Assembly (NCBI RefSeq): GCF_023343835.1
Contig: NC_064435.1
Span: forward strand, 79,618,134-79,682,133
DNA: 64,000 bases
Direction: 5' to 3'
From: Lagopus muta
Lineage: Eukaryota > Chordata > Aves > Galliformes > Phasianidae
Below the pieces are notes generated by a model. It saw only the letters and a list, made by a program, of their open reading frames with translations. It searched no databases and was not told the DNA's origin. How positions within the stretch are numbered: position 1 is the first letter of the stretch; each line of letters opens with the position of its first letter. Position numbers and translations under genes: made by a program. Below, piece after piece: positions 12,801 to 37,700 of this stretch.

Positions 12801-13109
12801 GAGCTAGAAGAGAGCTATGACCTTAAATCAGATTTAGCAGCTATGGGCTTGTTGGACATATTTGACAGTGCCAAGGCTGACTTGTCAGGAATGTCAGGGG
12901 CACATGACCTTTTCCTCTCCGAAATTGTACACAAGGCTTTTGTAGAAGTGAATGAGGAGGGCACAGAAGCTGCAGCTGCTACTGCTGGCATTGCGATGCT
13001 TTGCATGATTATAGAAGAGGATTTCAATGCTGACCATCCTTTCCTTTTCTTTATTCGCCACAACCCAACACAAAGCATACTTTTCTTTGGCAGATATGCT
13101 TCTCCATGA
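6716..13109 (+). CDS. SERPINB1: SERPINB1, leukocyte elastase inhibitor
   Basis: Complete clade B serpin, an intracellular inhibitor of neutrophil elastase, cathepsin G and proteinase 3 in mammals. Coding exons are 6716-6883 (the exon starts at 6708), 8845-8982, 9895-10012, 11018-11160, 11841-12008 and 12708-13109, giving 378 aa against 379 in human. The start is the ATG in GCAGCCATGG, giving [16 protein letters not shown], very close to human SERPINB1. The hinge [10 protein letters not shown] is followed by a loop with Cys at the P1 position (codon 13002-13004), as in human SERPINB1, and the protein ends [10 protein letters not shown]. There is no signal peptide, as expected for ov-serpins. 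It lies head to tail with SERPINB6 and convergent with WRNIP1. Confidence 0.95.
7190..7392 (+). mobile_element. CR1 LINE 3' fragment
   Basis: Forward CR1 3' end: GGTTGCCCAGAGAAGCTGTG, then a fragment ending CCCATTCTATGATTCTATGA, the diagnostic CR1 terminal octamer repeat. Confidence 0.9.
8289..8370 (-). mobile_element. possible CR1 fragment, short
   Basis: AATCACAGAACATCCCATGG followed by GGACCCATGAGGATCCAG resembles the reversed CR1 3' end, but the similarity fades quickly. Confidence 0.45.
8845..8982 (+). CDS. SERPINB1: SERPINB1 exon 3
   Basis: 138 bp after TTTCAG. It encodes [14 protein letters not shown] through [13 protein letters not shown], in frame with both neighbours. Confidence 0.94.
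9895..10012 (+). CDS. SERPINB1: SERPINB1 exon 4
   Basis: 118 bp after ATCTAG. It begins [14 protein letters not shown] and ends at NQWVEEKTE, with donor GTGAAC. Confidence 0.94.
10190..10535 (-). mobile_element. CR1 LINE fragment in SERPINB1 intron 4
   Basis: Reverse CR1. It opens with ATCATAGAATGGCCTGGGTT and runs through CCAGGCTGCCCAGAGCC, CCTCCAGGGATGGGG and AACTTCCTCCTAATATCTAA. It inserts between SERPINB1 exons 4 and 5 without touching a splice site. Confidence 0.92.
11018..11160 (+). CDS. SERPINB1: SERPINB1 exon 5
   Basis: 143 bp after TCTGAAG. It encodes [17 protein letters not shown] and MPFRLNK, with donor GTACAA. Confidence 0.94.
11841..12008 (+). CDS. SERPINB1: SERPINB1 exon 6
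   Basis: 168 bp after CTACTCAG. It encodes [17 protein letters not shown] and [20 protein letters not shown], with donor GTGACC. Confidence 0.94.
12708..13109 (+). CDS. SERPINB1: SERPINB1 last exon, reactive loop
   Basis: Terminal exon after ATTCTAG with stop TGA at 13107-13109. It carries the hinge and the reactive loop, where Cys-Met is followed by an acidic stretch (EED). It ends with the conserved [12 protein letters not shown] block. Confidence 0.95.
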
Positions 13110-16322: not shown

Positions 16323-16509
16323 AATATGACCACTGCAATTAACTTAAGACTGTGGAAATAAAAAGGTGCAAATGAAATCAGAAATTGGCTTTTTGCTACT
16401 CTTTATCATATTGAACCTGTCGGATGTTTTCATGTCATCTTGTGACACCAAGTAAAGACAAGTTCCTACACATGTGCATTAAATGTCCATGCAAATTCTT
16501 ACTTCTTAA

Positions 16510-16640
16510 CAATGCATACTTCACTCTGAAAGTAATGCTTCCTATTTATTTTCATGGAAATTGCAATAGATACAAAGAGCAAAATAATACTCATAGAGCA
16601 AATTCTCATCTACAAAACACTATTTTTCACCATACTCCAG
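16510..16640 (-). mobile_element. mariner (Galluhop-like) terminal fragment
   Basis: Starts CTCTGAAAGTAATGCTTCCT and continues with TAGATACAAAGAGCAAAATA and CAAATTCTCATCTACAAAAC. This is the same end, in the same orientation, as the larger mariner at 57.5 kb. Only about 130 bp remain. Confidence 0.8.
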
Positions 16641-16834
16641 CCCTCTGCTGAAGGAGGTTGAATAGTGTAGGCTGCACAGGAAAGGGTGAGTGAACACTTT
16701 TATGTCAGCACTTGGTACAAAAAGCAATGCTACTATTTTGTACTGCATCCAGACCAGAACAAGCCAAAAACTGTCTATCCACATTTCAGAAAGTGTAAAC
16801 AGTTCATGGAAGATAGATTACTGTAAAGAGAAAA

Positions 16835-16945
16835 AACACGTGTAGTATAAACGTGCAAATTTACTTCCCCCAAAGTACTGCAATCACAAACAAAAATCAT
16901 GGAATGATGGAGGGTGATGGAGGCCCAGGCTGGGGCCTCTGTGTT
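16835..16945 (+). repeat. extra copy of RING-unit promoter module
   Basis: About 110 bp (ATTTACTTCCCCCAAAG, then GGAATGATGGAGGGTGATGG and AGGCCCAGGCTGGGGCC) that recurs at about 18170-18280 and 30042-30150 just before the second first-exon candidate of each RING gene copy. This copy lies upstream of copy A and has no matching exon after it. Confidence 0.65.
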
Positions 16946-17165: not shown

Positions 17166-17559
17166 TATATGACTACAATCAGGCTGGGAGCCTCGGAACA
17201 ATAAGTTTCCATCAGAACATTTATTGAACAATAAACCATCTAGTTGTATGTGCCTGGGTCTGTGTGTCATGGCCAGGGCCACCCAATGGGCCTGTGGGAA
17301 GACAAGGTGTGAAACAGTGATGTGCAAAACAGAGACATGTGAAACACTGACACTGAGCACACGAGATGTGGGGGGGAATGGAGCGGGCAGCAGCGCTGCG
17401 GAAAGCCCAGGAACGTGTGCTGGGGCTGCAGTGCTGCTGGCACGCGTGCAGCAGGTGAGGCCGGCGCACGGTGATGAGCAAGCAATGGACGGCGACATCG
17501 CTGTGGGACGGGTGGTGATGTCACCCAGTGAAGGTGAGCACTGGCGACACGGCCGAGCC

Positions 17560-17834
17560 GTGCTTTGTGACGTCTCCGTGCGACGCATTGTGACTGCTTG
17601 GCCCACGTTGCTTGAACGCAGGCGCGGCAGCCCGGCCCGGCAGTTTGTGCCTGGCCTCCGACCGAGCGACTGTGCGAGGACTGGAGTGTGGACAGGGCGA
17701 GCTTTGGAGCTGAAACGTGCTCTGGGTGCTGCTAGCGCAGCTCTCAGACGCCGTCTCAGAGCCACTTTGCTGTACCCCGACCCTGCTGGCAGCAGGCAGC
17801 CGGGACATCGCGGAGAGGCGCGTGCAGCAGCGCA
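17560..17834 (+). promoter_or_regulatory. candidate promoter and alternative first exon 1a, RING copy A
   Basis: CpG-rich stretch with a CRE-like TGACGTCT at 17568-17575 and a TGATGTCA half-palindrome about 50 bp before it. It ends in a donor, GCGCAG/GTAGGC, near 17834-17835. The same layout recurs about 0.75 kb downstream (exon 1b), so the unit seems to carry two promoters. No transcript data are available, so this is inference from motifs and splice sites. Confidence 0.4.
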
Positions 17835-18289
17835 GGTAGGCAGCGTGGCAATGCCTCACGCCAGCAGCATGGAGGTGACATTAGATACCTACAGCCCCAC
17901 AGACCTGGAGAAGTGGGACAGCATGCTTGCACCATGTCACGCTGCCACCATTTTTGTTTCCACTGCACCCAGCCGTCCAATAGCAGCAGGCCCCAGGGTC
18001 CACACTGCAAACAGGGCATGCGGTCCATCATCCATGCAGTGCAGGCAGACAGCAACTGTGAGGAGCTGGTCCTCAGGACAGCCAAAGCAGCATCCATTGC
18101 ACCATATTGGACCTATCTAGCTTTGCCATACTATCTTATGGCACCATCTAATGGCAAATTGGTTACAAGTTACACACACAGTAGAAATACGTAAAACCTT
18201 TACTTCCCCAAATCTATCTTTCACCATTACAAAACAAAATCACGGAATGATGGAGGGCGATGGAGGCCCAGGCTGGGGCCCCAATAGAT

Positions 18290-18590
18290 GCAGTAATGGA
18301 CGGTGAGGTCACCGACTGATTTGTTGTGATGTCAGCAATGGAGATGACTGTGACCTCGCTAGCCCTTCCTGTATAGATCTGGGCTCTGGCAGAGGCCAGC
18401 GTGCACTCGTGCCTGGACTCCAGTTGAGCATAGCTGCGAGACTTGGAGCACTGAGCGAGTTGGTTGCGTTGAGCTGTGGGGCTGCTGGCACCACTTCTTG
18501 GTGCCCGTCCCACAGTATCAGCAGCGTTTCCCCCAACCCTGCCTGCCTCGGGCAGCTGGGGCCGCACAGGGTGCGCTTGTAGCGGCAGAG
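18290..18590 (+). promoter_or_regulatory. candidate promoter and alternative first exon 1b, RING copy A
   Basis: CRE-like words (TGAGGTCA, TGATGTCA, TGACCTC) precede a GC-rich segment ending in the donor GGCAGAG/GTGAGT near 18590. The acceptor CTCTTTTGCAG follows about 120 bp later. It resembles exon 1a in order and wording (GTGCCTGG, GGACT, CTGCTGGCACC). Confidence 0.45.
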
Positions 18591-18797
18591 GTGAGTGGTG
18601 CAGGACATCACGGCCCCTGAAGCAGCTGGTGGGGAACAGGGACCGGGAGGGTTTGCTGCTGAGGGACCGGGGCAGCGAGTGACCGCAGGCTCTCTCTCTC
18701 TTTTGCAGTTCGTAATACCTTCTGCTTGCTGCAGCACCAGCGAGGGGAGCAGCTTCCCGACCTCAGCTCTCCCCAGCCCACCGCACAGCCCGGGGCC

Positions 18798-19745
18798 ATG
18801 GACGTGGCATCCGACTGGGTCTGCCCCATCTGCGGGCAAATCCGGGAGGATGTCACCTACGTGACCCCCTGCCAGCACCAGCTGTGCTACGGCTGTGCCA
18901 TCTGGTGGGCCTACAAGAAGCCGAGTTGTGCCGTATGCGGGCACGAAATTACAACCATCCGATACTCGGTGAGGTCGGATGATGACTTCCTCGAGTGTGC
19001 TGTCCCGCAGCCCGCAGCGCACTCAGACCAAGATCAAGGCCTGCAGGAGGAGCAGGGGCCTGCAGAGCCGGTGCTCATCCCACCTGAGCACAGCTTCCCA
19101 GCCGAGGTCTGGGCTGCATTTTTCAGGGAACATCAGGGAGACCTCGAACCCCTGCTCCAATGGCTGCAGGAGGAGATCCAGCAGCAGTCCAGTGATGACT
19201 GGTGGGAAGTCTATGCGGGACAGTGGACCACCATAAACTTCCTGTGCCAGCATGGACTGGACGAGGAGGCTTTGGTGCAGGCGCTGCAGCTGATCACCAA
19301 CGGCGATGTGGTGCCCTTCGTGAGAAGGCTCATCAGCACCGCAGCAGCCCTGTACGGCCCCACGATCCGCCACGAGCTGGACCACCGGGACAGCCACGCT
19401 GCTGGAGGACGGGAGGACGGACCTGCAGCCAGCACCATCACCAGCACCTCCCATCTGGAGCCTCCCACCTCGGGCCCAGGCCGCTCCACCAGCCCCACAG
19501 GGCCCAGCGCCGAGGAGCTGCCCGGCAGCTCTCCTGGGGGACCCGGGCGCCCCAGCACCGCCACCGCGCCCTCAGCGGAGGAGCCCCAGGAGGAGCCAGG
19601 GCAGGCAGCGGCAGCGGGCCCCTCCACCCAGGGCAGGGACCGCTCGCGTGGGGGGCCCCGGCGCCCCCCAAAGAGGAAGGCCAGCAGCAGCCGCCAGGAC
19701 TCGTCCCCACCCCGCAAGAGGCGGCCCCGGCGGTGGCGGCGCTAG
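18798..19745 (+). CDS. Topors-like RING-finger protein, copy A
   Basis: Single coding exon encoding 315 aa, likely an E3 ubiquitin ligase. The C3HC4 RING ligands are C9, C12, C25, H27, C30, C33, C44 and C47. It is followed by YSVRSDDDF (residues 56-64), which matches the motif after the RING in Topors. Residues about 95-210 form a region with [10 protein letters not shown] and WLQEEI, probably helical and perhaps a substrate or partner domain. Residues 215-315 are Pro/Ser/Gly rich and end in a basic tail (PPRKRRPRR) that looks like a nuclear localisation signal. The start is ATG in GGGGCCATGG, just after the acceptor at about 18708. An AATAAA follows the stop. It lies tail to tail with WRNIP1. 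No in-frame ATG lies upstream. The family is inferred from the RING; the substrate is unknown. Confidence 0.85.
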   Translation: MDVASDWVCPICGQIREDVTYVTPCQHQLCYGCAIWWAYKKPSCAVCGHEITTIRYSVRSDDDFLECAVPQPAAHSDQDQGLQEEQGPAEPVLIPPEHSFPAEVWAAFFREHQGDLEPLLQWLQEEIQQQSSDDWWEVYAGQWTTINFLCQHGLDEEALVQALQLITNGDVVPFVRRLISTAAALYGPTIRHELDHRDSHAAGGREDGPAASTITSTSHLEPPTSGPGRSTSPTGPSAEELPGSSPGGPGRPSTATAPSAEEPQEEPGQAAAAGPSTQGRDRSRGGPRRPPKRKASSSRQDSSPPRKRRPRRWRR

Positions 19746-19828
19746 GCCGGCACCGCACTGCCGTCACAGCACGGCTCCAGCGGGCCGGGAGGACGACATC
19801 TACCTCTCGGCCTGCTGCTTGCAGACTA

Positions 19829-19838
19829 AATAAATAAA
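19829..19838 (+). terminator. poly(A) signals, RING copy A
   Basis: Two overlapping AATAAA motifs about 85 bp after the stop codon, followed by GTCTCTGTGTTATTG. They are identical in copy B, which supports a real 3' end. Confidence 0.75.
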
Positions 19839-20732
19839 ATGAACATCTGTTACAACAAAGAAGAAAAAGTCTCTGTGTTATTGACCAGGCCGTTGGCATT
19901 GCTGTCCCCACCCATCACGCTTCCTCCATATTCCGCTCCTTGGGGAGGGCGTAGAAACACAACCTTATTTCCACCACCAGGAATCGGCACTCATGGCAGT
20001 GCTAACAAAACACGCGAGGGCTTCAACAAGTCGGAGATGGAGCACAAGTTACTGCAATGATCCCGCCATTTAAACGAGCGGGGGGAAGGGCAAATTTCTG
20101 CCCCTGGGGCGGAACACCTCCTGGCCACACCGCAGCCGGGGCCACCCAGCTGGACAGGACCCAGGAGTCCTGCCGGACTCTCAGCTGAACCGGCAAGGAG
20201 CGCTGCCCGCAAAGGTGAGTGCTGAGCTGGGCTGCACGAGGTGCCAGCGTGCTGCCAGCGTGCAAAGGGCGCTGATCTTGCCCCTCTGCTCAGCTCTAAG
20301 GAGGCCGCAGCTGGAGCGCTGGGCCCAGCCATAGGCTCCCCAGTGCAGGGGAGAGCTGCCCTTGATCATCCTGCACGTCGTCAGCCCTGGGATGTGCTAA
20401 CTGTCCCTGTCCCAACTGACCAGGGCTTGCTCGGCTTGGTGCTGAGTTTGGCGGATAGTGGGGCTTGCTGTGAGGAGCAGGGCTGGTCCTCAGCCTCAGA
20501 GGAGCCAGTCTACCACGCAGGTGTGACACTCCCTTGTACGTAGGAGGACAAAGCCGAATTATTTAAGTGCAGGCATTCAATTTGCATGGCTCAGCTGTTC
20601 AATCCAAAGTTCATGCTAAAACACATCTCAGAATACAAGACGGTGCTTTACTACAAGGAATATCCTTTCCAAAAGCATTTACCAAAATGTTACGCTAACC
20701 ATCGCAAGTGATGCAACTTCAAAATCATACAA

Positions 20733-21800
20733 CCGTGGAATGGCCTGGGTTGAAAAGGACCACAAAGATCATCTAGTAGGCAGGGCTGCCAGCCACCAGA
20801 CCAGGCTGCCCAGAGTCACATCCAGCCTGGCCTTGAATACCGCCATGGATGGGGTGTCCACAACCTCCTCACGCAACCTGTCCCAGTGCTTCACCACCCT
20901 CTGAGTGAAAAACTTCCTCCTAAGATCTAACCTAAATCTCCCATCTGTTTAAAATCATTCCCTCTTGTCCTATCACACTTTCCACCCATGTTAACAGCCA
21001 TCCCCCTCCTGCTTATACGCTCCCTTTAAATACCGGAAGGCCACAATGAGGTCTCCCCGGAGCCTTCTCTTCTCCAAGCTAAACAACCCCGGTTCCCTCA
21101 ACCTTTCTTCACAGGAGAGGTACTCCAGCCCTCTGATCATCTTAGCGGCCCTCCCCTGGACCCATTCCAAGAGCTCTTCCTTGTACTGGGAGTCCCAGGC
21201 CTGGATGCAGTACTCCAGATGGGGCCTCACAAGAGCCAAGTAGAGGGGAGCAATCACCTCCCTCTCCCTGCTGGCCTTCCCTTTTCTAATGCAGCTCAGA
21301 ATACAACAGTGTAATTACAACAGTGGAACAAACAAAAAGCTTCCAGGCTGCAGTGTCCAGCCTCTCATTCACTAGGACCCCCAAGTCCTTCACTGTAGGG
21401 CTGCTATCGATGAGTTCTTCCCCCCAGTTATAAATAGCGGAGATTGCCTCGGCCCAAGAGCAGCACCTTCTCTTGGCCTTGCTGAACCTCATTAGGTTGA
21501 CATGGGCCCACTTCTGATGGTCTAGCTCCTTCTGGATGGCTTCCTCTCTCCTGCACCGCTGCACAGCTTGGTGTCATCTGCAAACTTGCTGAGGGTGCAC
21601 TCGATGCCATTGTCTCTGTCATTGATGAAGATGCTGAAGATCACCAGTCCCAAGACTGACTCCTGTCCTGAGGGACACTGCCTGTACCTCCACCCTGACA
21701 CCGCTGATCACCACTCTTTGGCTGTGACCAGCCAAACAATTCTTAATCCACTGAACAGTCCGTCTTTCAAATCCACACCTCTCCAGTTTTGAGAGAAAGA
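20733..21800 (-). mobile_element. CR1 LINE, 3' portion with ORF2 remnant
   Basis: Reverse CR1 of about 1.07 kb. The minus strand 20991-21257 translates as a reverse-transcriptase C-terminal tail ([33 protein letters not shown]). The frame is broken further upstream. About 20 bp at 21311-21333 (GTAATTACAACAGTGGAAC) does not look like CR1 and recurs at 23712. Confidence 0.92.
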
Positions 21801-21939
21801 ATCAATTCAGAGACTTTCAGGACTACCCTGGTTCCAAAAATAATTTACATTTGCCATAGAAGAAGACATGATAAATCAAAGGATCTTCAGACTTACAAAA
21901 CCACGCTGCTGACATAAGTATTCAAACAAATGCAAAAGC

Positions 21940-22448
21940 ATTGTTTTCTACAAGTTTATTAGTTGAATAAATGTTGGAGAAAATTTGAAAAATCATAAAA
22001 GGAAGAACTACACTGCAATTATATTTAGTTCCCTGCACTTCCTCCCACAGTGTGGGAGAGGACAACACAGTCTCTTTGTTCTTCTGGAAAATAAACATTC
22101 TAAAAGTCTGAACTGGATACACATTTTGAAAAGCAGCATGATCATATTCCTTATTTCTCTACAAGAGCCAAAAATGGAAGATACTTTTTTCTCCAATTCC
22201 CTCGAACCAGTGGGTGACAGAAGTGACAGAACTCTATTGCAAAGCTTACTTTTGTATTTCCATACTGCCAGACTGCAGTGGTTTACAAAACTCCTTTGGA
22301 ATGATAGCAGAAAAACCAAGAATACTTCAAGGGCGGAGCGACTTCGTCCTCTCAGCTCCAGAAATATTGGGCTGCAATCAGCAGGGAAATCTTCATCCCA
22401 GTACAAACGTATGCATCATAAAAACAAGAAGTATTCAGAGCAGGGCTG
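21940..22448 (-). other. WRNIP1: WRNIP1 3' UTR
   Basis: Sequence between the stop codon and the poly(A) signal. The overlapping open frames on both strands here are not recognisable proteins. Confidence 0.6.
21955..21960 (-). terminator. WRNIP1: poly(A) signal for WRNIP1
   Basis: AATAAA on the minus strand about 490 bp after the WRNIP1 stop, giving a short 3' UTR (about 21.94-22.45 kb). Assigned by position. Confidence 0.6.
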
Positions 22449-22724
22449 TCACGTTCTTCGTTCCTTAAAGAAGTCTGTTCCTTTCAGCTCTTCTGGCAGA
22501 TAGTCCTGCTCCACAGGTTCCTTGTACATGGGGTTATACTTGTAGCCTTTACCATAGCCCAAGTCCTTCATGAGCCTCGTCGGGGCGTTTCTCAGGTGCA
22601 GTGGAACTGGTGGTAAAGGTCCTGTGTGCATCCTCAGACATTCTTTGACATTGCCATACGCCCTGTACACCTCTATAGACTTTGGTGCTCTTGCAAAATA
22701 CACTACGCATTGTGCTAGAATGAC
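22449..22724 (-). CDS. WRNIP1: WRNIP1 exon 7, C-terminus
   Basis: 91 codons plus stop TGA. It encodes [39 protein letters not shown] and the end DFFKERRT. The acceptor is TTTCCAG. Confidence 0.95.
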   Translation of the reverse strand, partial: VILAQCVVYFARAPKSIEVYRAYGNVKECLRMHTGPLPPVPLHLRNAPTRLMKDLGYGKGYKYNPMYKEPVEQDYLPEELKGTDFFKERRT

Positions 22725-25700
22725 CTGGAAACAAGGAAGGGGAAATGTTAAATGATTTGTTGTAAGCTCTAGTGTCTGTTATCCAGATGTTTTGTGTAGC
22801 ATGACAAGGCCTTCATTTATATACTGACCTCCTGGTGCTGCTACTGTATGAACACTATTTCACAACAACACAGTCCTTCATGACTTTGGCTACTTGTAAA
22901 GAAGAGCTACTTTACAACAGCTGGATATATGACTATTTATAATTGAAAGAAAACAAGAATAGGAACAAAACAAAATTATTTGAAATAACACAACATGTGC
23001 TCAGTGGCATTTCAAGGACAGCTTCTATTTCTGGAGCAACAATGTTTTCTCACTCCAAGCCTTGCCTAGAACGGACCAATAGCTTTGCCTTGCTCTCGCA
23101 ATCTCAGTTTCTTTCTGATAATTACAACAAGATCTTACAATTTAAGTTACTCTTAGATCAGTGAACTAATGAAGCCTTTACCTCGCATTCTGGCATTCCA
23201 ATGAAGTGACAACCTTGATAAGCAGCAACTGCTTGTGTTAAAGCCAGAGGATCTGCCAGCCCTGTAACAAGGGATTACATGAAAGCAGGTTAGTCAGTTT
23301 ACTAGAATCACAATGTTTCTTCTTCTCTGCCATGGAAGGCTACCCATGCACACTTCAAAGCTGCAGTCTCAGGTGGTGGTGGAACACCCACTAAAATACT
23401 TGGCAGCACATGAGATAGATGCTTTCCATCCATAACCTTCTCCCTTTTCCTTTTGAAAGCCTGAATCTGCTGCCACAGAGTGGCGGCCTGAGCAGTAGCA
23501 GGTAGTGTAGGATTCACTTCCTTTTTGTGAAAAAGAAATGGGGAACTATTGCTATACAGACATAGCTTCCCCAGATCTACTTAGTCTTCACTCATCATTT
23601 ACATACTAAAAATGTTGCTGCTTCTGTTGCTCACGGCAAACAAAATGCCTTGAAACTACTGACCCACCTATCATGAGGTTTGCACGTCACGGTTGGCTTT
23701 AGGCTTCCACAGTAATTACAACAGTGGAACAAACACAAAAACCCAGACATCCCTGCCACACACATTCTCTGTGACACAAGGTGTCCTACAGTCATGACTA
23801 GATTGGAAACTATCGGTATTTATACACTGTCAAAACCTAACCTCAAAAATCTTTGTTCCTCCAGCAACAGTCACCACAAGGACGTCAAATGTAGGCTTCT
23901 GTCTGCATACACTTTTTGTTGGCCACGATCCATTTCACTACTTCATACCTGCTGTGCATCCAGTATTTGTTTTGGTATTTATTTCACCCCTACCCCACAA
24001 GTACTAAATGTTGAAGGTCAGAAGACTGGCAGATCTTAGTCCAACACAGTATCCCAACCAAGAAATACTGAAAGTATGTACCTATATCTTCGCTTGCAAA
24101 CCTCACCAGCCTCCTTGCCACGTAGAGTGGATCTTCACCACCTTCAAGCATTCGAGCAAGCCAGTAGAGGGAGGCATTTTCATCTGAGCCTCTCATAGAC
24201 TTATGCAGGGCAGAGATGCAATTGTAATGTTCTTCTCCTATTCACAATGGGGGAGCAGAGATAAAGAGAGCTATTTGGAGGAAAAGGAGCAAAATACATT
24301 TAAGAGAACAGAACGTATTTCTTTAGATCACAGTAGGTAAACATAACCTGCTTCATCCAGTTCTCTTCAAACGCGCATCATGCTGTTCATCGGTGTTTTC
24401 AGCACCTTCATGCTCTCATATGTTGATCACCACACCAGCAGTTAATAGCACAGTAGATAAAGATAAGAGTGGTCTGCTCTGTTGCTTAAACATTATAGGG
24501 CCAACAATTTGCTTCTGACACCCTACGGCCTTTCCTTCAGAAAAAGGAAAAGAAGTTGGGAAGAAGACCATGTATCTGTATCTCCTAATGCACACAAACT
24601 AAGGTATGAGAATATATCAGCCACGAAACATGGCTTTGGGATCTATACAGAGTGCTGAGAAGGCAGCAGAAGAATAAAAGAAAAGCAATTATATATGCAG
24701 GAGATATCTTAGAAAAAGAAATTTCACATCAAATAAAGCTTGAAATGAAACTTGAAAACAAAGCATGTGGCAAAGACAGACATGAGTTACACACAGACAT
24801 GAATTATACACAGGAAAAAAGGAAAACCCTGCAGTAGTGCCAGGATTTATGATTTGTTGTTCTTTATATTCCACATCATGACATCCTGTAGTGCACTGGG
24901 AGTTGAAGTGTTACTGCTCCAGTTCCATGGGCTGTTGATATTCCAGGTACCTGGTTCTCAGAAGAGAAGAACTACATCTCCCAGAAGATGGGACTGTTCC
25001 ATTTCCAAGTAGAGGGAAAGATAAGAGAGGTATTGATTTGATGGATGGACTGTTCAATGACATAGATGATGGCATCAAGTGCATCCTCAGCAAGTTTGAG
25101 GACAACACCATGCTGAGCAGTGCAGTCAATACATTGGAGGGAAGGGAAATCATCCATAGGGACCTGGACAAGCTGCAGAAGTGGGCCCATGAGAACCTAA
25201 TGAGGCTCAACTAGGTCAAGTGCAAGGTGCTGCTCTTGGGCCGGGGCAATCTCAGTTATTTATACAAACTGAGGGGAAGAACTCATTGAGAGCAGCCCTA
25301 CAGTGAAGGACTTGGGGGTCCTTGTGGATGAGAAGCTGGACATGAGCACATGAGCCTTCATGTGATCATTAGGGAGAAACACTCTGAGCCACTTCTATGA
25401 AATCAAGTACACAGAGGATGGGTGGGAACAAAGGTTCTATGGGACAGCAGCCACAAGCCAACAGCAAACACACAAAGTTACATACTCAGTACATGAGAAT
25501 TGTACCAGTAAACTGGTCAGATTTTCCTCTTTCTCCTCCTCCCTAATCGTGACTTCATTCCCACACATACTCCATAATATTTTTCTTCTCCCTCCCCACT
25601 GCCTATCTGCCACTTGCCAGCTGCTAATATACTGGTATCTGCACAGCTGGCACTTCCTGACAATGAGCCATCATTTCCTCTCTGTAACAAGGCTAAGAGC

Positions 25701-28700
25701 AGACACATACACTACAACAACCTTTTGAAATCTCTCATCACAGCTTTTCAATAGGAACAGTTAATTGAGCTGCATCAGGCACAGCATAAAAATGCTACCT
25801 GGCATGAATGTATGATACTACAGCAGAGGAATTTAAGTACTGCTGAAGAACTTGCACGGGCATTCAAGGGGATCTGTGTGATTTCTAATATCAGTCACTG
25901 TCTTTCCATCCTCTCACATAAAAATACATGGTGGCCAACCTTTGCAATATCAAGTCACAAGATTAGCAAGAGTGGTTAGCATAACAGAAGCCTTGAATGT
26001 GTTAGATTTAAGTGACCTGTCCTAAGCAAGTTCCAAAATTCATTACCTTAAAAAGCTAGTCTCAAAGCAAAGCAAGCCCCTCAGGTTTTTGAGTAACACT
26101 GTTGTGAACACGACCACTACCAAGACTTTCAATGAAATAAAGACATCAATGGAAGTTTGCCGGCCACCGCAAGAACAAGCCTCCTAACCAAAATACTACC
26201 TTTTGTCTTAGACTTGCCTCTTAGACCTCAATATCCCAATAACCTTAAAAAAAACCAAAACATTTTACTACACAACTATTGGCAGGGTTGCAACTATGTC
26301 TCTCAATCCACCTATGCTTCTGAAGCAGAGAGAACAAACGAGGAAATTCTGACTGAGCCTCCTCTAGTGCAAAGAAAAAGCAGCTTTTAGGCCAGATTTA
26401 ACTGTATCTGCTGCTTCATCAGAGCAACTGCTACGCAAGGGGGAGAAGTAGTGGGAATTATGGAGGCTCTTCCAAATGCTACTTTGCAGAAACTGTGTCA
26501 GGTACTCACCTGCTCGGTCATAGAGGATGTGCGATCGCTGCAGACCCTCCTTCACATGTTCTTCCGTTATCAGAACTCCATCCACAGAACAACCTTTGGT
26601 AAGGCTCAGCACAGTGGTCTTCCCTGCTGCCAGTCGGGCCTGTACTGCTAACTGAAGTCCATTCAATCCAGTCCTCGCATCACCATCACAAAGGTAGGCG
26701 AGAGTACTTAGAGCTTTTTCCTCTACATACACAGGTAATCTGCAACAAGAATATTTCGTGGCATTATCCCACCTCATGCTCCTCCCTCGCTGCGCATCAT
26801 GATAGGTAAGGCATTTCTTTATGGAGTCTGTCAAGAGTTTAAGCCAGCACTCCAGAATAACTGTACCTTCTTCAAGGAGTTTCAAACACCCTCTTGGTGT
26901 TTGAGGAAACAGAAAAATGAAGCAAGATGGTCAAGTATCACATGTATCAAATTACTTGGAAATCAAGGGACACGCACAAGCCAGCTGTTGGCACAGTGCG
27001 CTGATGAGAGCCAATGATTGGAAGTAACGCAATGCTTCCCTATTCCGTGATCTCTAACCCAACACACTCAGAACTTAAGAAAAACAAACATTTAGCACTC
27101 AGAAGAACTGAATCACAGTAGTTTTTCTGAGCAATTACAACCTCAAATTTTAACAGTCTGTGCAGATTTTTACAAGTGTGGCACGCAGGCTCTCATACAT
27201 TGCTGGCAAAAACACATAGCTAATAGTGGTGACTGTTGAAAAATGGTGTTTGGTAGATGAGAATTTGCTCTGTTAAATAATGTTATTGTGCTTTTTTGTA
27301 TCTGTGGTAGTTTTTACAGAAATAAATAGGAGGCATTATTTTCAGAGCAATCTACACACTACCATACGCATGGTTCTCTGCCTTACGCTGTTCTCTCTGA
27401 AGAAGGACTCTATCCCAGCAACTCTCTTTTCAGTAAGGAAATCAGATGGATGATCCAAAAAGGGAACAATTTTCCAGCATTGTTCAACAGAAGACCAAAA
27501 GGAAGCCCATGTTAAACACTGATTTGCAAACCAGCCAATTCAAAACCTCTCAGTACTTCTAATATAGACACTCACAGCCTGAACTGCATGGCGTCTTGGC
27601 TTGCCAACAGGAACCCAGGAATCCTTCACTTCACTGAGCTGCACGCCTACTGCATTACCTAACACCAAATACATCACGTACCATCTAGTTTATCATCTGA
27701 CTTAAATTTGAGATACCACACTCAGGGCACCACTGAAATGATAAAAGTAAAAAGCCATGAATGAAAAGACGAATGCGAAGACGAATGCATGTTTTTTCCT
27801 TTCATGTTCCCCAACCAATGCTTTACAAGGCACAATGCGATGGCAGTGAAGATGACGACAATGTAACAACGCATATCTGACCGTAGAGAAACCCACTAAC
27901 TGATGTAAAACTGATAAGGAAACATTACACGTGTGATGACACAACACAGAAAAGGATTCCAGTTTCTGTAGTGACGCTGTGTGTTTCTTAAGAATTAAAT
28001 TCTACGTTGGCTGAAAAGACATTAACACAAACCGCGGTCTTGTCTCAGCTCACCTCCTTCAACGTGCCTAGAAAGTGCACAGACAAACTCACAAAAGCAG
28101 AGCCCGTCCCAAACATCCAACTGTGACAAAAGCAGGAACTTATCAGAGGAAGGAGAACACACAGAAGAGTAAAGAGTCAAACTCAAACCCAGTAACAGCG
28201 CACAGCTGGGAGTGATCTCCTTAATTTTTGAAATGTTTCAGTTGTATCACGATCTTAGGCTTGAATTCCATGCATTTTTAAAATGGAGAACAGCTTAAGA
28301 TGAGGAATCCGAATTTCACTACGTAAAAACTGCCCAGTGAAAAACTCCAAATTGAATACGAGGCACCAGTGACACAGGAGAAATAAACAATCCCACATTA
28401 TTCAATGCAGTGAAAAGCTGTAGCAAGTGCACCTCTAATAAACCTTCTGGCACCTCAGTCAGGAGGTCAGCAGAGCCACCTCGTCCACTCAGTTCGGACG
28501 TGGCAACATCAGCTGAACACCAACAGACCAGAAGATACATGTGAAGCATGTCAGGCTTTTATTTCATCACATTTCACAAACTAAGTAGGATCAGGATAGC
28601 AATCCCTGACATGCATCAGATAACCACTGTAGGCCTGACAGTGGAAGTGTATGGGGTACGTAGCAAGCAAACCCTGTGCAGTTACTGAACAGAACTGTTC

Positions 28701-31700
28701 AGTAGGCTGTTACCAGCTGGGACTGCCTGGGGTTCTTGCATAGGTGGCCATATTCAGGCTCAGTACGCACACACATCCTATTCACTGGTGGTCAGTTAAT
28801 TTCACAGCACTTTGACAAGCGCAGACAGTTGCCCCTGTGGCAATTCAGCATCTCTGTAATGAAAACCTATTAGTAATTCCAGTTCTCTTTTTTAGTCAAA
28901 TGCAGTCCCCTTTTGCTATCCTGCTCCAGCTAATCAGCAGCCTTAAGCTGCTTCTGCAGTAGCTGGCTTTTCAGCAGACCAGACCACTGCACTTAAGATT
29001 GAACAGAAAACATCAAATGCATCAATGAAGGAATGCTGCCAGCATCTGGGATAGCAGCATGATCATATGTTCCAATTTACTGAAAGGTTCACTCAACAAT
29101 AATTATGCAAAACTCATACAATCACTAAGGCTAGAAAAGACCTCAAAGATCATCTAGTCCAAGAAACAGATGAAAGTGGAAATTTTATTGAATAGTAAAC
29201 GTTCCTGCTGCACGTGCCTGGGTCTGTGTGTCATGGCCAGGGCCACCCAATGGACCTGTGGGAAGAGGTCGGCCCAGGTGCCACTGACTGGTGGGAAACA
29301 CTGACACTGAGCACACGAGATGTGGGGAGGAATGGAGCGAGCAGCGGCGCTGCGGAAAGCCCAGGAACGTGTGCTGGGGCTGCAGTGCTGCTGGCACGCG
29401 TGCAGCAGGTGAGGCCAGTGCACGGTGATGAGCAAGCAATGGACGGCGACATCGCTGTGGGACGGGTGGTGATGTCACCCAGTGAAGGTGAGCACTGGCG
29501 ACACGGCCGAGCCGTGCTTTGTGACGTCTCCGTGCGATGCATTGTGACTGCTTGGCCCACGCTGCTTGAACGCGGGCGCGGCAGCCCGGCCTGGCAGTTC
29601 GTGCCTGGCCTCCGACCGAGCGACTGTGCGAGGACTGGAGTGTGGACAGGGCGAGCTTTGGAGCTGAAACGTGCTCTGGGTGCTGCTAGCGCAGCTCTCA
29701 GACGCCGTCTCAGAGCCACTTTGCTGTACCCCGACCCTGCTGGCAGCAGGCAGCCGGGACATTGCGGAGAGGCGCGTGCAGCAGCGCAGGTAGGCAGCGT
29801 GGCAATGCCTCACACCAGCAGCTGGAGGGGGATTCCTGAGGGACCATCCCCAGGCCGGCCCATGCCCGTGCGGTCTCTTGTCCTCTTCCAGCGTGACACC
29901 TGCTGTCACAGCATCTCCTGCTGGTGGAAGCATGGAGGTGACATTAGCCAAAGCAGCATCCATTGCACCATATTGGACCTATCTAGCTTTGCCATACTAT
30001 CTTATGGCACCATCTAATGGCAAATTGGTTACAAGTTACACACGCAGTAGAAATACGTAAAACCTTTACTTCCCCAAATCTATCTTTCACCATTACAAAA
30101 CAAAATCACGGAATGATGGAGGGCGATGGAGGCCCAGGCTGGGGCCCCAGTAGATGCAGCAATGGACAGTGAGGTCACCAACTGATTTGTTGTGATGTCA
30201 GCAATGGAGATGACTGTGACCTCGCTAGCCCTTCCTGTATAGATTTGGGCTCTGGCAGAGGCCAGCGTGCACTCGTGCCTGGACGCCAGTTGAGCATAGC
30301 TGCGAGACTTGGAGCACTGAGCGAGTTGGTTGCGTTGAGCTGTGGGGCTGCTGGCACCAGTTCTTGGTGCCCGTCCCACAGTATCAGCAGCGTTTCCCTC
30401 AGCCCTGCCTGCCTCGGGCAGCTGGGGCCGCACAGGGTGCGCTTGTAGCGGCAGAGGTGAGTGGTGCAGGACATCACGGCCCCTGAAGCAGCTGGTGGGG
30501 AACAGGGACCAGGAGGGTTTGCTGCTGAGGGACCGGGGGCAGCGAGTGACCGCAGGCTCTCTCTCTTTTGCAGTTTGTAACACCTTCTGCTTGCTGCAGC
30601 ACCAGCGAGGGGAGCAGCTTCCCGACCTCAGCTCTCCCCAGCCCACCGCACAGCCCGGGGCCATGGACGTGGCATCCGACTGGGTCTGCCCCATCTGCGG
30701 GCAAATTCGGGAGGATGTCACCTACGTGACCCCCTGCCAGCACCAGCTGTGCTACGGCTGTGCCATCTGGTGGGCCTACAAGAAGCCGAGTTGTGCCGTA
30801 TGCGGGCACGAAATTACAACCATCCGATACTCGGTGAGGTCGGATGATGACTTCCTCGAGTGTGCTGTCCCGCAGCCCGCAGCGCACTCAGATCAAGATC
30901 AAGGCCTGCAGGAGGAGCAGGGGCCTGCAGAGCCGGTGCTCATCCCACCTGAGCACAACTTTCCAGCCGAGGTCTGGGCTGCATTTTTCAGGGAACATCA
31001 GGGAGACCTCGAACCCCTGCTCCAATGGCTGCAGGAGGAGATCCAGCAGCAGTCCAGCGATGACTGGTGGGAAGTCCATGCGGGACAGTGGACCACCATG
31101 AACTTCCTCTGTGAGCATGGACTGGACGAGGAGGCCTTGCTGCAGGCGCTGCAGCCAATCACCGACGGCAATGTGGTGCCCTTTGTGAGAAGGCTCATCG
31201 GCACCGCAGCAGCCCTGTACAGCCCCACAATCCGCCACGAGCTGGACCACCAGGACAGCCACGCTGCTGGAGGACGGGAGGACGGACCTGCAGCCAGCAC
31301 CATCAGCAGCACCTCCCATCTGGAGCCTCCCACCTCGGGCCCAGGCCGCTCCACCAGCCCCGCAGGGCCCAGCGCCGAGGAGCTGCCCAGCAGCTCTCCT
31401 GGGGGACCCGGGCGCCCCAGCACCGCCACCGCGCCCTCAGCGGAGGAGCCCCAGGAGGAGCCAGGGCAGGCGGCAGCAGCGGGCCCCTCCACCCAGGGCA
31501 GGGACCGCTCAAGTGGGGGGCCCCGGCGCCCCCCAAAGAGGAAGGCCAGCAGCAGCCGCCAGGACTCGTCCCCACCCCGCAAGAGGCGGCCCCGGCGGCG
31601 GCGGCGCTAGGCCGGCACCGCACTGCCGTCACAGCACGGCTCCGGCGGGCCGGGAGGACGACATCTACCTCTCGGCCTGCTGCTTGCAGACTAAATAAAT

Positions 31701-34700
31701 AAAATGAACATCTGTTACAACAAAGAAGAAAAAGTCTCTGTGTTATTGACCAGGCCGTTGGCGTTGCTGTCCCCACCCATCACGCTTCCTCCATATTCCG
31801 CTCCTTGGGGAGGGCGTAGAAACACAACCTTATTTCCACCACCAGGAATCGGCACTCATGGCAGTGCTAACAAACCACGTGAGGGCTTCAACAAGTCGGA
31901 GATGGAGCACAAGTTACTGCAATGATCCCGCCATTTAAACGAGCGGGGGGAAGGGCAAATTTCTGCCCCTGGGGCGGAACACCTCCGGGCCACACCGCAG
32001 CCGGGGCCACCCAGCTGGACAGGACCCAGGAGTCCTGCCGGACTCTCGGCTGAACTGGCAAGGAGCTCTGCCCGCAAAGGTGAGTGCTGAGCTGGGCTGC
32101 ACGAGGTGCCAGCGTGCTGCCAGCGTGCAAAGGGCGCTGATCCTGCCCCTCTGCTCAGCTCTAAGGAGGCTGCAGCTGGAGCGCTGGGCCCAGCCATAGG
32201 CTCCCCAGTGCAGGGAAGAGCTGCCCTTGATCATCTTGCACATCCTCAGCCCTGGGATGTGCTAACTGTCCCTGTCCCAACTGCTCAGGGATTTAATGAT
32301 GCAGAACATCTTAATATGTAGTATCTGAATTTCAGTTTCTAACATCTGTCCCATGAAAAATTCCAAATAACACGAGGTGCTAGTGATCATCCAATTAATG
32401 TAGGAGAAATGAGAAAACAATTCCATATTCTTTAACGCAATGAAAAGCTGTAGCAAGAACACTTGTAATAAACCTTCTGCCCCCTTCAGCAGCCCTGCCA
32501 GTTCCAAGAGGGATGAGGTGCCAATCATGCTCCCATTCCACCTCCACATTGGATCTGTCAGTGCCTGGTAAGGAGCTGGCAGAACCTATGGCAGGGCCCC
32601 CTGGAACCAGCCCACCTGGGGGGACCCAGTGAACCTCCAAGAGGAAGGCCAGTAACTGCCAGGACCTGGCATCACCAAAGCAGAGGCCACCCAACCAGCA
32701 GCAATACAACAGTGATGGAGTTGGTGAGACTGGGGCTGTGCAGCAGCTGGGCCACACAGCAGCCCCGTCATTGCTGTCCACGTCCACCATGGAAATAAAG
32801 CAGAAACAAAGAGTGAAGAAAATGTGCTGGTGCTTCTAACAGCATAATGGTTGCAGCCATTACCTCCCTATCCCTAATGCTTTCTGCCCTTTTTCCTGCT
32901 GCTGTGCCACTGTTACATTCCAACCAAGATCCCCATGGGCCTCAGTGAAGGGAAGCATAGATTTCTGCACATGGGGAGGAAAGTCACCACATTCTACCCA
33001 GCTGGACAGGACCTTGGAGTTCTGCTGGACATTAAGCTGAACTAGCAAGGGACCCCCTAGTCACTAAGTTGAATGGTGCCCTGGGCTACGTGAAGCCAGG
33101 TGCTGCCAGCACGTGAAGGGTGGTGATCCTGCCCCTCTGCTCAGATTCCAAATGCTGGACCCAGAACTAGGCAGCCCAGCACAAGCGTGATGACATAAAG
33201 AAAAAGGTGCCAAATTCTGTAATGCCTCTCTGTGGTTCAACTCTACAGAAAGAAAAGACCACAAGTGAAAAAAAGAAGCAAGGTAGTCTAACCTTATTAT
33301 GAACTTGCAGCAACAGTGGGGACAAGAAAAAGCCACCAAGAAAACTTAAGGAAATAGATCTTGGTCAAGTATACTTTTCCTTTTGATAACTGCTATATAT
33401 ACACATAGTGCAGAGCCAATGAAACCGATGAAATTCAGCAATGGCTTCACTCTCACTGCGCACACAAGGTACCTGTAGAAACTAGCGAAGATTCACCACC
33501 AAGGTAGAGACCATTAAGAATCATCTTCCTTTCAAAATCTAAACAAGGTCACACAAGTGACATGATACCAAGACCATCTCAGAAACAGATTCCTAGTAGC
33601 AAATGCAGAATTTCACACTGCACGTTGTTAGAAACAAACTTACTCCTTAAGGAGACTGAAACCATAATTCAACGTTCATGCCCCTCTTCTGCCTTTTGGC
33701 TGGAGCTCTGCCTCCCTTCTGAAGTGGGCATTCCTCACATCTGGGGACATGCAGTGCTACAGCACCTTTTTCAACTCTGAAAAAGGTGACCAAAGTGAAC
33801 AACCAACTCAGCTGTAATTCTTAACATCCCTTTCATTTGTTCCCCAGGATAGATTGAACACTTATCTACCTGTGTCTAATGCTAGCCCTGCTGTCTAGAT
33901 GTGGTGAGGTAAAAAAGGTGAAAGAAGACACAGCTGCTCCTGGAGAGTGGTAGGTGGAGAGGAAATGAAGGAGCAAAAATAGCATGGGGTGTGAAGCAAG
34001 GAGGAGTTAACAATGAGACCAAAACTGAATCAGAGAAAGGGATAGAATGGCTTAAAAAAAAAAAAAAAAAGCCAAATTCCACAGCAAGATTATCTATGAG
34101 CTACTGATCAAAACCAGATTGCAGTAGAAAATACAAATAAAAAAGGTTAAACAAGATTGCAACAAAACCTCTTAAATTCTGACTTCAAAGCATCTGGCTC
34201 CCACTTGGTACTTGGTGTGGGGCACTTTCTCTTCATGGATATATTTTTGAAACTGTGTTAGTCTGACAATCTGCTTGCCAGACTTCTTCGAGTTTGATTA
34301 AACACCACATTGTGCTCTTTAAATCATCTACTGCTAACAGGAGGTTACAGATACAGGGAATCCAGTGAAACCCAAACCCAAACAACTGCAACTGAAACTA
34401 TGCCTCATACTTTAATCCTATACAGAAAGGAAAGTCTCTGAACCTCAGTCAGGGTGTGGCCACAAGCACAGCTGTGCCTTTATGTTAAAGATGACATGTT
34501 CTATTGCCCTCTCTTCCAAGATTCCTATCACCACATAGATGTTACAAAGGAGTAAAAACAAGCCACGATACCTTAAAAAAACGAAAAGGATAATAAAAAA
34601 AGAAAAAAAAAGGCAGAAGAGGGGATGACATCTTTCAGTCCCTTTCCTGACCACAGCATCCCAGCTAGCTATCCTTACTGCTTGCATTCTGTGATAATAC

Positions 34701-37700
34701 TGAAAGGACACAATATATTCTCTTTCATCTAATTCACAGAGTGCTTACACACTTCCATCACATCAATACACTTCAACTGACTAGCAGTACACATCACGAA
34801 ACAATTGTAATGATGGCTTTCATGAAAGCAGCATAGGACCAAGCATTATTCTTATTTGCTAGCTAGCCATTTCAAAAGTCAAATATACATCCCATAGAGA
34901 TGAATCTTGATCTCACTTATTTCAGACTCTCCCCAGAGTTTAATATGACTATCTGGTTTGGACAAAAAGGGGCAGAAAAAATAAATAATCTATTAACATC
35001 TCACAGCAAACATTCCCAGCACATCACAGAACATAATGTAGCATTTATGCTGAAGCTACAGACCAGCAACATCCTCTCTGATTCCATTGAAAAAACCCTT
35101 AGAAAACAACAAACTTTTGTCACGCGCTTCCAAGTTAATTTAATAGGGGATGCCCCATCTGCTACTAAGTGGAAACGTGATGCGTTCACAACCCATAACA
35201 AGAAGTAATGCACATTAGGATACGAAAAAGACTCAGTTACAGGCTTCCACAGCAAATCCTCAGCAGAGGAATGGATTTAAATATCCTGGGGGGTGAGCCA
35301 GGAGCCACAGATCCAAGTATAAAACTCTGTCCTAATCCAGACGGTAAGATTATGTTTTGGATGGAGAGAGCCAGTGCTCTGAATTCTCTCCCTCCTGTCA
35401 CCCTGCTGCTCCTGCCATATGCTGCCACTTCTTTTCTTTACTATCAGAAGTGGCTAGGGTTTCTCTTCCCACCCCCTAAGCGCTTCATCCTCTCCCTGGC
35501 AGGCAGTCAATTCCTCAGGCTGTGCGCGTTAACACCCTGCAGCCCATAAAGTACTCACTCTGAGCTCTCGTCGCTGCTGCCAGTCGCAGAGCTGCTGTGC
35601 TGGTTGCCTTGGCCCAAAACTTGGACCCCTAAGGACTTGACGGCCCGCAGCAAAATTGCCTCCATCGCCTCAACTGAGAGCTTCTCCAGAACGATCACCC
35701 GGCAGCGGCTGAGAAGAGCGGCGTTGACCTGGAAGGACGGGTTTTCTGTTGTTGCTCCTATCAGAGTCACCGTCCCGCACTCGACGTGAGGAAGGAAAGT
35801 GTCCTGAGTATGGGAGGGAAGCAGAAACAACTGATTTCAATCAATGACAACCTGAAACATCCCATGTGAGTAGGCTACCTAGCATTTTCAAATACTTTCT
35901 TTTGCGTTGTGAGTCTTTGGGTTCCCTGCTGATGTGACAAATAACCTCACTGACAAGGCAGCTCATCTGCTCAGCTAATTAAATGATTTAATTTCATGCA
36001 CATGGTGAGCTGTTCACCTTGGTGATCCATTCTTGCAATGAGAATGACTCTACCAGCTAAAAAGGAAGCATCAAAAGTCTGTAAACTTTTAGTTTACTTA
36101 GGCAACTTCATTTTGTTGTGTGGCAAAAGAGGTAACATGAAAATGCCTTATCAAACATAACAAATAATGAGGCTGCTTCTAACTCTTTGAACCAATGTGT
36201 AGGGCTACAGTTCTCCATCTAATTCAATAGAACATCTCAGAAAACTACAGGAAGATCACAACACAGTTCCATATCCATGTCTTAGTTCCATAACCATGGA
36301 TGTATCCTTAACCGTCAGGACAGAATTTAAGCTTTCCATGGCATGACTAAAAGATATTATATGTAGGAAAAGAAATAGGAAACAAACAGCCAAGTAATGG
36401 CTGCAGCAACATACTGTCCCAAAGAACCATGCTATGCCTTTATTTTCTCTGTTATTGCAGAGAGAAGAGCACAGCATTAAAACAAACACTCTGTGCAAAT
36501 CTGCATTCCACACTTTTTAAAAAGCAACCTGGAATGTTATCACCATGGTGCAGGCTGAAATGAAGGTATGTACAGGAAATGTCACTAATATGGAGTAATA
36601 AAATTCCAGGAAAACGTCATCTAAAGCCCAGTACACAAATCAACTACAGGTACAGCTCAGCCTTTTCTTTCAATCTTTGAATCACAGGAACAGCACATCA
36701 ACGTCCGGCAGTTAGTTAGAGACATAAATACTGCATTACTTAATTCATTTACCACAAGCGTTAAAATTAAAATCAAAAGCCCAAAGTAAGTTATCATCTT
36801 AAGCAGGGAATTTCACAGATGTTCTGACAAAGGCTTTTTCCAAACAAGCAGTGCAACACAATACCTGCTGAGATTTATTGAACCGATGGATCTCGTCGAT
36901 AAAGAGAATGGTTCTTCTCTTGAAGAGTCTTTTTTCATTCTGGGCTTGGTTGATGACATCTCGAACATCATTTGTCTTGGCACTTGTGGCTGACAGTGTC
37001 ACAAACCTCATGCCTTTCTTTTTGCTGCTGTTGGCAATTATATGTGCGAGGGTAGTCTGAAAAAGCAGAAGGGGATAACTTTGTAACAAAAATCATTTGG
37101 GGCACAAAATAGTAATTTGAAGACAGTACATAAATAACAAAAACATATATTTTGGACACAGGGACAGTGCTGGCAGTTCAGAGAATAGGGTATTTTAGTT
37201 CATGCAACTGTAGCCCACAGCAGACTCAGAAACTTTCCGCTAGGAGTAGCTGCCAATTCCACACTGCATTTCTAAGGCTTGCACTTTTAAGCACCAGACC
37301 TACTCAGTCTTAACACTGAAAATGCCAGCAACGACAGCTGTCTCTTTCACCATTGAAGAAAAACTCTTCTCCAAAGACACAGCTGTCACGGGAGATGGGT
37401 TGACTGCAATTCACTGCACAATTATTCTGTAGAGTATTTTAAAGGATGAATAGCTGGTCTGAGATACCTGCAGAAGAGCTTACAGAGCTACTGCATTTAA
37501 GAAAGAAAAAGCTACATAAATGTTGTTACAGCTTTTTCTATTTCCACCACACATAAAAACTAAATTTGTCAAAAAGCAGCTCCCCACAAAAGAACGAGAG
37601 CACTGAAAAACTACATGCTTACTTCAGAAAATGTAGCTCAATCTAAACAGTCAAGAGTCATCAAGCCTGGGGTAGAAAAGGGTAGCTGCCTAAACAAACC

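Follow-up and report, generated by a model that had tools for sequence, protein, structure and literature searches.

In human cells, TOPORS, a SUMO-targeted ubiquitin ligase selective for SUMO1, takes part in DNA-protein crosslink repair and PML control (PMC11402782). In the chicken, an "E3 ubiquitin-protein ligase Topors-like" model appears in a liver expression table (PMC7563548), its name suggesting the family described here, a likeness by name alone. The term "Topors-like" is also used in an aphid paper. Beyond that table name, no account of such a bird family was found among the literature matches listed, which covered few subscription papers. Here we describe a 64,000-nucleotide stretch of the Lagopus muta genome (the window; C3:79618134-79682133) that carries two Topors-like RING genes, A and B, at the WRNIP1 locus. 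Judged from their sequence, A and B are probably live genes within a large family that evolves by birth and death, derives from TOPORS and would encode nuclear RING ubiquitin ligases.

The TOPORS gene of this bird (L055), a 1066-aa (amino acid) frame with arginine/serine (RS) repeats, lies on Z, the chromosome with the largest number of family copies. Like TOPORS, which also carries SUMO-binding motifs, family members possess a RING followed by a (S/T)VR(A/S)(D/E)DDF stretch, a TOPORS-type helical region and a basic C-terminus. Unlike TOPORS, which is one gene, the family occupies about 140 places, and A and B lack a long RS region, with a short basic tail ending each protein at 315 aa. Tandem arrays of protein genes are also described in a galliform in PMC9974502, comprising testis-expressed amplicons on the chicken dot chromosomes and Z and HINT1W arrays on W. 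Some of these amplicons are testis-biased, and the word TOPORS is absent from the main text of that paper. The chicken arrays involve other genes, unlike the single family found here across Z and many autosomes. If expressed, the family would offer a natural set of RING and variable-module combinations for studying how ligases change targets, as well as a case in which to ask why some genes multiply on the sex chromosomes of birds. Topors-like models in bird annotations should not be counted as single genes, and the scale of the family may surprise the specialist.

Descent from TOPORS and gene anatomy

Protein A, composed of a RING (aa 9-47), a helical region (~100-202), a proline/serine/glutamate-rich linker and a basic tail, is 95% identical to protein B. 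Both match the Pfam RING model zf-C3HC4_3 (6.2e-8 for A and 6.4e-8 for B). All 13 aligned members retain C9, C12, C25, H27, C30, C33, C44 and C47, along with P24 and W37, the conserved proline and tryptophan that presumably face the E2 (ubiquitin-conjugating) enzyme. The eight zinc ligands are complete in 56 of the 57 fetched open reading frames (ORFs), which were chosen by a six-ligand motif, and therefore only the last ligand pair provides an independent test.

Aligned as a profile, the 13 members match the TOPORS of this bird across both RING and helical region (hhalign E=5.7e-25, with the RING contributing much). Individual phmmer searches with the 57-sequence set detect both regions in older members, the second-region match to TOPORS being 2e-9 for L049 and weaker for A (1e-3) and B (6e-5). 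Because the RING and helical region match and the RS region is gone, A and B are TOPORS-derived paralogues and not TOPORS, in agreement with the Topors-like RING identity proposed in a first-pass annotation of the window; the family as a whole descends from the N-terminal half of TOPORS.

The predicted gene plan has two exons separated by a small intron, the first short and non-coding and the second coding, with ~280-360 codons. Among the 53 copies with enough upstream DNA, 49 carry a splice donor ~155-315 b upstream of the ATG, across subfamilies (6.2 expected), and 43 carry AATAAA or ATTAAA within 200 b of the stop (5.0 expected), the expectations coming from order-1 Markov resampling and the copies being related. 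Since splice donor and poly(A) signals are common across copies, the genes are not intron-less retrocopies. The shared 5' intron signals and upstream region rule out a retrocopy origin, poly(A) tracts and target-site duplications not having been searched for. Upstream of the gene, a cAMP response element (CRE)-like motif occurs in 26 of 45 non-independent copies (3.4 expected), often ~470-480 b before the ATG, and is found in none of the C17 copies and one C21 copy among those scanned. As a hint of a testis or germline amplicon, the motif is suggestive only.

The product would start with a C3HC4 RING and a helical region of TOPORS type, continue in a linker that is probably disordered, and end in a basic tail that probably directs it to the nucleus, with no long RS region. 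Such proteins would most likely be nuclear RING-type ubiquitin ligases in which the RING stays constant and the helical region and tail vary, with partners binding there. The sequence comparisons establish the family, its descent, its gene anatomy, its spread at the DNA level and the constraint on the RING; ligase activity, nuclear location and the choice of partners through the helical region are what we infer.

Family size and selection on the RING

The genome of the window, covering 1,026,658,476 bases in 165 contigs, was searched for further copies. The protein A query yields at least 121 places, a lower bound obtained by merging 135 rows from 126 scored candidates out of 235. Further member queries lift the total to ~141 places, decayed pieces included, a count that leaves out TOPORS, a partial TOPORS copy and an RS-type RING set on C19 and C8. 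The first-pass annotation had proposed an insertion and duplication at this site; the duplication stands, and the single local event gives way to the ~141-place family.

Of the 121 places, 85 combine a stop-free match with a frame of 270 aa or more, another 19 have a single stop and a frame of 360 or more, and the other 17 are shortened or broken, with neither open-frame criterion applying. Seventeen of the 19 one-stop places lie on Z (C59) and are stop-free with a closer query, so their single stop is a natural end. Open frames are thus present at 102 of 121 places (85 plus the 17 Z copies), under a criterion that still admits some reduced members, among them L006 (287 aa) and L015 (230 aa). 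Z holds 44 of the 121 places against 8.9 expected by length, and about one-third of the ~141. By density, C21 (8 places in 10.9 Mb) exceeds Z (44 in 75.3 Mb), and C17 (10 in 18.0 Mb) is close to Z.

A separate multi-copy RING set with RS-type stretches is located at C19 7.3-12.3 Mb and C8:35.2-35.6 Mb (L056, L057). Matched through the RING alone, it occupies at least eight places on C19 and at least two on C8.

Selection is clear family-wide in the RING and does not emerge from A versus B alone. Summing the nine pairs without shared sequences, out of 23 computed, gives a pN/pS ratio of 0.16 for the RING (P 6e-10, from 17 nonsynonymous and 30 synonymous differences), compared with 0.60 for the middle and 0.61 for the tail. 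Between A and the C3:43 Mb copy, the corresponding substitution-rate ratio (dN/dS) is 0.33 at a dS of 0.38. Divergence between A and B is higher in the coding sequence (CDS; 3.07%, 29/945) than in the non-coding flanks (2.15%, 39/1815), with 16 nonsynonymous codons against 20.0 +/- 2.4 in a neutral simulation (P=0.078). A stop is gained in 67% of the neutral A-B simulations, leaving a chance of about 1 in 3 of staying open. The simulation thereby rules out the A/B pair alone as proof of selection, and the earlier argument that two open copies imply selection or a very recent event is not supported by the figures for this pair. At a substitution rate of ~2e-9 per site per year, the non-coding divergence corresponds to about 5 million years, and exchange would lower the apparent age; a very recent event is therefore not required.

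Mostly neutral amplification, with genes riding recombination-prone segments, open only through youth and without a common function, would account for A-B coding divergence beyond that of the flanks at the nonsynonymous probability given above, for the decayed pieces adjoining both units, for the 17 shortened or broken places and for short members such as L015 and L038. It is unlikely in the face of the 102 open places, the RING constraint, the dN/dS between A and the C3:43 Mb copy, and the splice and poly(A) signals common to distant subfamilies.

The products may also serve as competitors or decoys of TOPORS, sharing its E2 or partners without an RS region, rather than as ligases with their own targets. 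Retention of the RING and helical region with loss of the RS region fits such a role, and effects of dosage would be favoured by the high copy number. Neither intact zinc ligands nor a RING that is the most constrained part would be required of a pure decoy, yet both are observed here, and we judge the decoy role improbable.

Several observations weigh against A and B as living ligase genes. The zinc-ligand count is partly preset by the choice of ORFs, which lowers confidence, and Pfam matches above cut-off are confined to RING models, with no Topors-specific domain. When searched as single sequences, many Z-type and C17 copies give a weak helical-region match to TOPORS or none. An AlphaFold model of the protein displays a RING-like start and five helices at a mean pLDDT (predicted local distance difference test) of 41.7 and a pTM (predicted template modelling score) of 0.25, and because this model is poor the helical region rests on sequence. 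The A-B pair by itself shows no significant constraint, part of the middle-region change reflects block exchange and not point change, and the genes are known here from DNA, their expression being putative.

Extending the preferred reading, in which A and B are ligase genes, Z might be the home of amplifying, module-shuffling TOPORS-derived ligases that invaded the autosomes. Germline or sex-chromosome conflict, through dosage or drive, would then act on the helical region as a fast-changing targeting part beside a constant RING. We hold this scenario to be doubtful.

Spread by DNA copying and probable block exchange

Tandem arrays are present on six chromosomes, with near-constant periods of 2210, 3805 and ~6970 b, and segmental copies accompany them with the intron kept, as in a multigene family spreading at the DNA level. 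On Z, five tandem copies are spaced exactly 3805 b apart, and on C1 the interval is exactly 2210 b for six. A tree of the 57 fetched ORFs and TOPORS resolves clades that are mostly chromosome-wise: C1 51-65 Mb; Z with C10 and C3:20 Mb; C21; C17 with C3:43 Mb; and C3:79 Mb. The family has spread at the DNA level, through tandem arrays and segmental copying within and between chromosomes, accompanied by patchwork exchange.

The clearest segmental trace adjoins the L004 unit ~0.9 Mb from the window, where C3:78,737,341-78,737,800 is 96.5% identical to window 22285-22746, the region of the last coding exon of WRNIP1. One copy thus carries a WRNIP1 exon, which argues for spread by DNA duplication. 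At this C3:78.74 Mb copy the unit itself is 92-98% identical, and the intervening DNA matches window 21796-22299 at only 78.6%. Window 20728-21795, a repeat stretch downstream of A that we take to be CR1-type, is missing there; it was therefore inserted after that duplication or lost at C3:78.74 Mb. The C3:80.89 Mb copy includes a WRNIP1 intron piece, 78.6% identical to window 23645-23984. These matches point to DNA segments copied out of the WRNIP1 site, or out of a source shared with it, followed by exchange.

Carriage by a mobile element or virus, such as an endogenous retrovirus or a herpesvirus-like RING gene, would explain copies across many chromosomes, and among solved structures the RING is matched best by one from an equine herpesvirus (1chc). 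The copies end differently and their flanks are unlike, no systematic search for target-site duplications having been made; their tandem periods vary, a WRNIP1 exon adjoins one of them, and the TOPORS match extends to the helical region. A scan of viral contigs gave 16 pattern matches and 0 confirmed relatives. We hold such carriage to be very unlikely. Bacterial and archaeal contigs gave 33 pattern matches, with 0 confirmed.

Further observations concern mosaicism between copies. L021 (C21:2.43 Mb) and L022 (C21:2.62 Mb) are ~98.5% identical except for a 60-codon helical block (codons ~121-180), in which 79 of 177 bases differ and the L021 version partially matches C10 and C3 members at 69-78%. 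The block looks like a module exchange between copies. L040, of the C1:53.9 Mb pair, is a mosaic copy with a near-identical RING and a strongly diverged middle and tail. L033 and L035 (C1:64 Mb), also mosaic copies, share a near-identical RING and differ strongly in the tail alone.

The two units at WRNIP1

Units A and B align on the same strand in two blocks in a BLAST comparison of the window with itself (E=0, far beyond chance): 18080-20428 against 29946-32293, 97.4% identical over 2350 b, and 17220-17875 against 29184-29828, 93.3% identical over 656 b. The window contains zero N bases. The parts of the two units and the decayed pieces beside them are as follows.

17218-20428, plus strand: unit A, compound, carrying RING gene A (sequence comparison)
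17218-17868, plus strand: P1, the promoter and first-exon region of an older Topors-like subfamily, ahead of the relic, with a donor GT at 17836
17869-18101, plus strand: RING relic of the older subfamily, aa ~1-78, frame broken (58% to L051 over aa 20-78)
18199-18590, plus strand: P2 and the non-coding first exon of gene A, with the CRE-like TGATGTCA at 18327 (predicted; exon end from the donor at 18591)
18591-18708, plus strand: gene A intron, 118 b, GTGAGT ... CTTTTGCAG (sequence)
18798-19745, plus strand: gene A CDS, 315 aa (ORF, Pfam)
19829-19834, plus strand: gene A poly(A) hexamer AATAAA (sequence)
20082-20428, plus strand: 3' flank left from the gene of the older subfamily, lying downstream of gene A (~75% to L038/L039 3' flanks)
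29184-32293, plus strand: unit B, inside WRNIP1 intron 3 and antisense to WRNIP1
30457-30573, plus strand: gene B intron, 117 b (sequence)
30663-31610, plus strand: gene B CDS, 315 aa (ORF, Pfam)
31694-31699, plus strand: gene B poly(A) hexamer AATAAA (sequence)
16436-16942, plus strand: piece of a decayed unit ahead of A, with upstream DNA of P2 type (74.9% over 526 b to the unit at C3:80.08 Mb; 83% over 82 b to P2)
32546-33144, plus strand: close beyond B, the decayed 3' end of a gene of the older subfamily with its 3' flank and an in-frame stop (56% over L051 aa 265-315; 66-72% DNA identity to L038/L039/L051)

The first-pass description of two near-identical, intact 315-aa RING genes in the same orientation, both keeping splice sites and poly(A) signals, is borne out by these features. 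A clean sister relationship between A and B is not supported. Within the 2760 bases compared, 68 differ, and identity is uneven, forming a patchwork along the units. A and B each possess private deletions, and a fuller version of the affected region is kept at C3:78.74 Mb. The RING relic is kept in A and lost in B, and the old acceptor piece next to it is deleted in A and kept in B. In the protein tree, A joins C3:80.08 Mb (support 0.65) and B joins C3:78.74 Mb at a support of 0.11, too low to fix its placement. The private deletions and patchwork identity rule out a simple A-to-B duplication, and the unit proves older and more intricate than the first-pass description had it.

The older RING relic is also present in the C3:43, C3:78.74, C3:80.08 and C3:80.89 Mb units and in seven of nine C17 units. 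By these comparisons, A and B are two of seven local copies, each with remains of the older subfamily's gene around it. The WRNIP1 units belong to a single local radiation on C3 (78.7-80.9 Mb), marked by a gene of younger type lodged within what is left of one of older type. False duplication of A and B or of the arrays in the assembly, which was made from HiFi reads and Hi-C (PMC10320755), is hardly credible given the base differences, the private deletions and the different flanks inside one gene locus, even though the exact 3805-b and 2210-b spacings of the Z and C1 arrays could mask copy-number errors.

WRNIP1 occupies the minus strand, its exons having been located by Pfam MgsA_C and AAA_assoc_2 matches and by motifs. 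Exon 1 ends at ~45.5 kb, followed by exons at ~37.0, 35.7, 26.5-26.7, 24.1 and 22.46-22.73 kb. Those nearest the two units are:

22455-22733, minus strand: WRNIP1 last coding exon (MgsA_C match)
24077-24190, minus strand: WRNIP1 exon, start of MgsA_C
26502-26735, minus strand: WRNIP1 exon, bordering the B-containing intron on its 3' side (AAA_assoc_2 match)
35570-35800, minus strand: WRNIP1 exon 3, ends approximate, GATTEN ... LLSRC (motif)

These placements set B in intron 3 and A past the WRNIP1 3' end, as first annotated, with 2.0 kb between the last MgsA_C match and the end of unit A and 2.7 kb between that match and the gene A CDS. Across the window, no RNA genes were found at Rfam gathering thresholds, and NCBIfam returned two weak matches only, far under cut-off. 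A sigma-70-type promoter scan, inapplicable to bird DNA, was set aside. Upstream of unit A, the last exons of two serpin genes are located at 4116-4547 and 12708-13109 on the plus strand (Pfam serpin).
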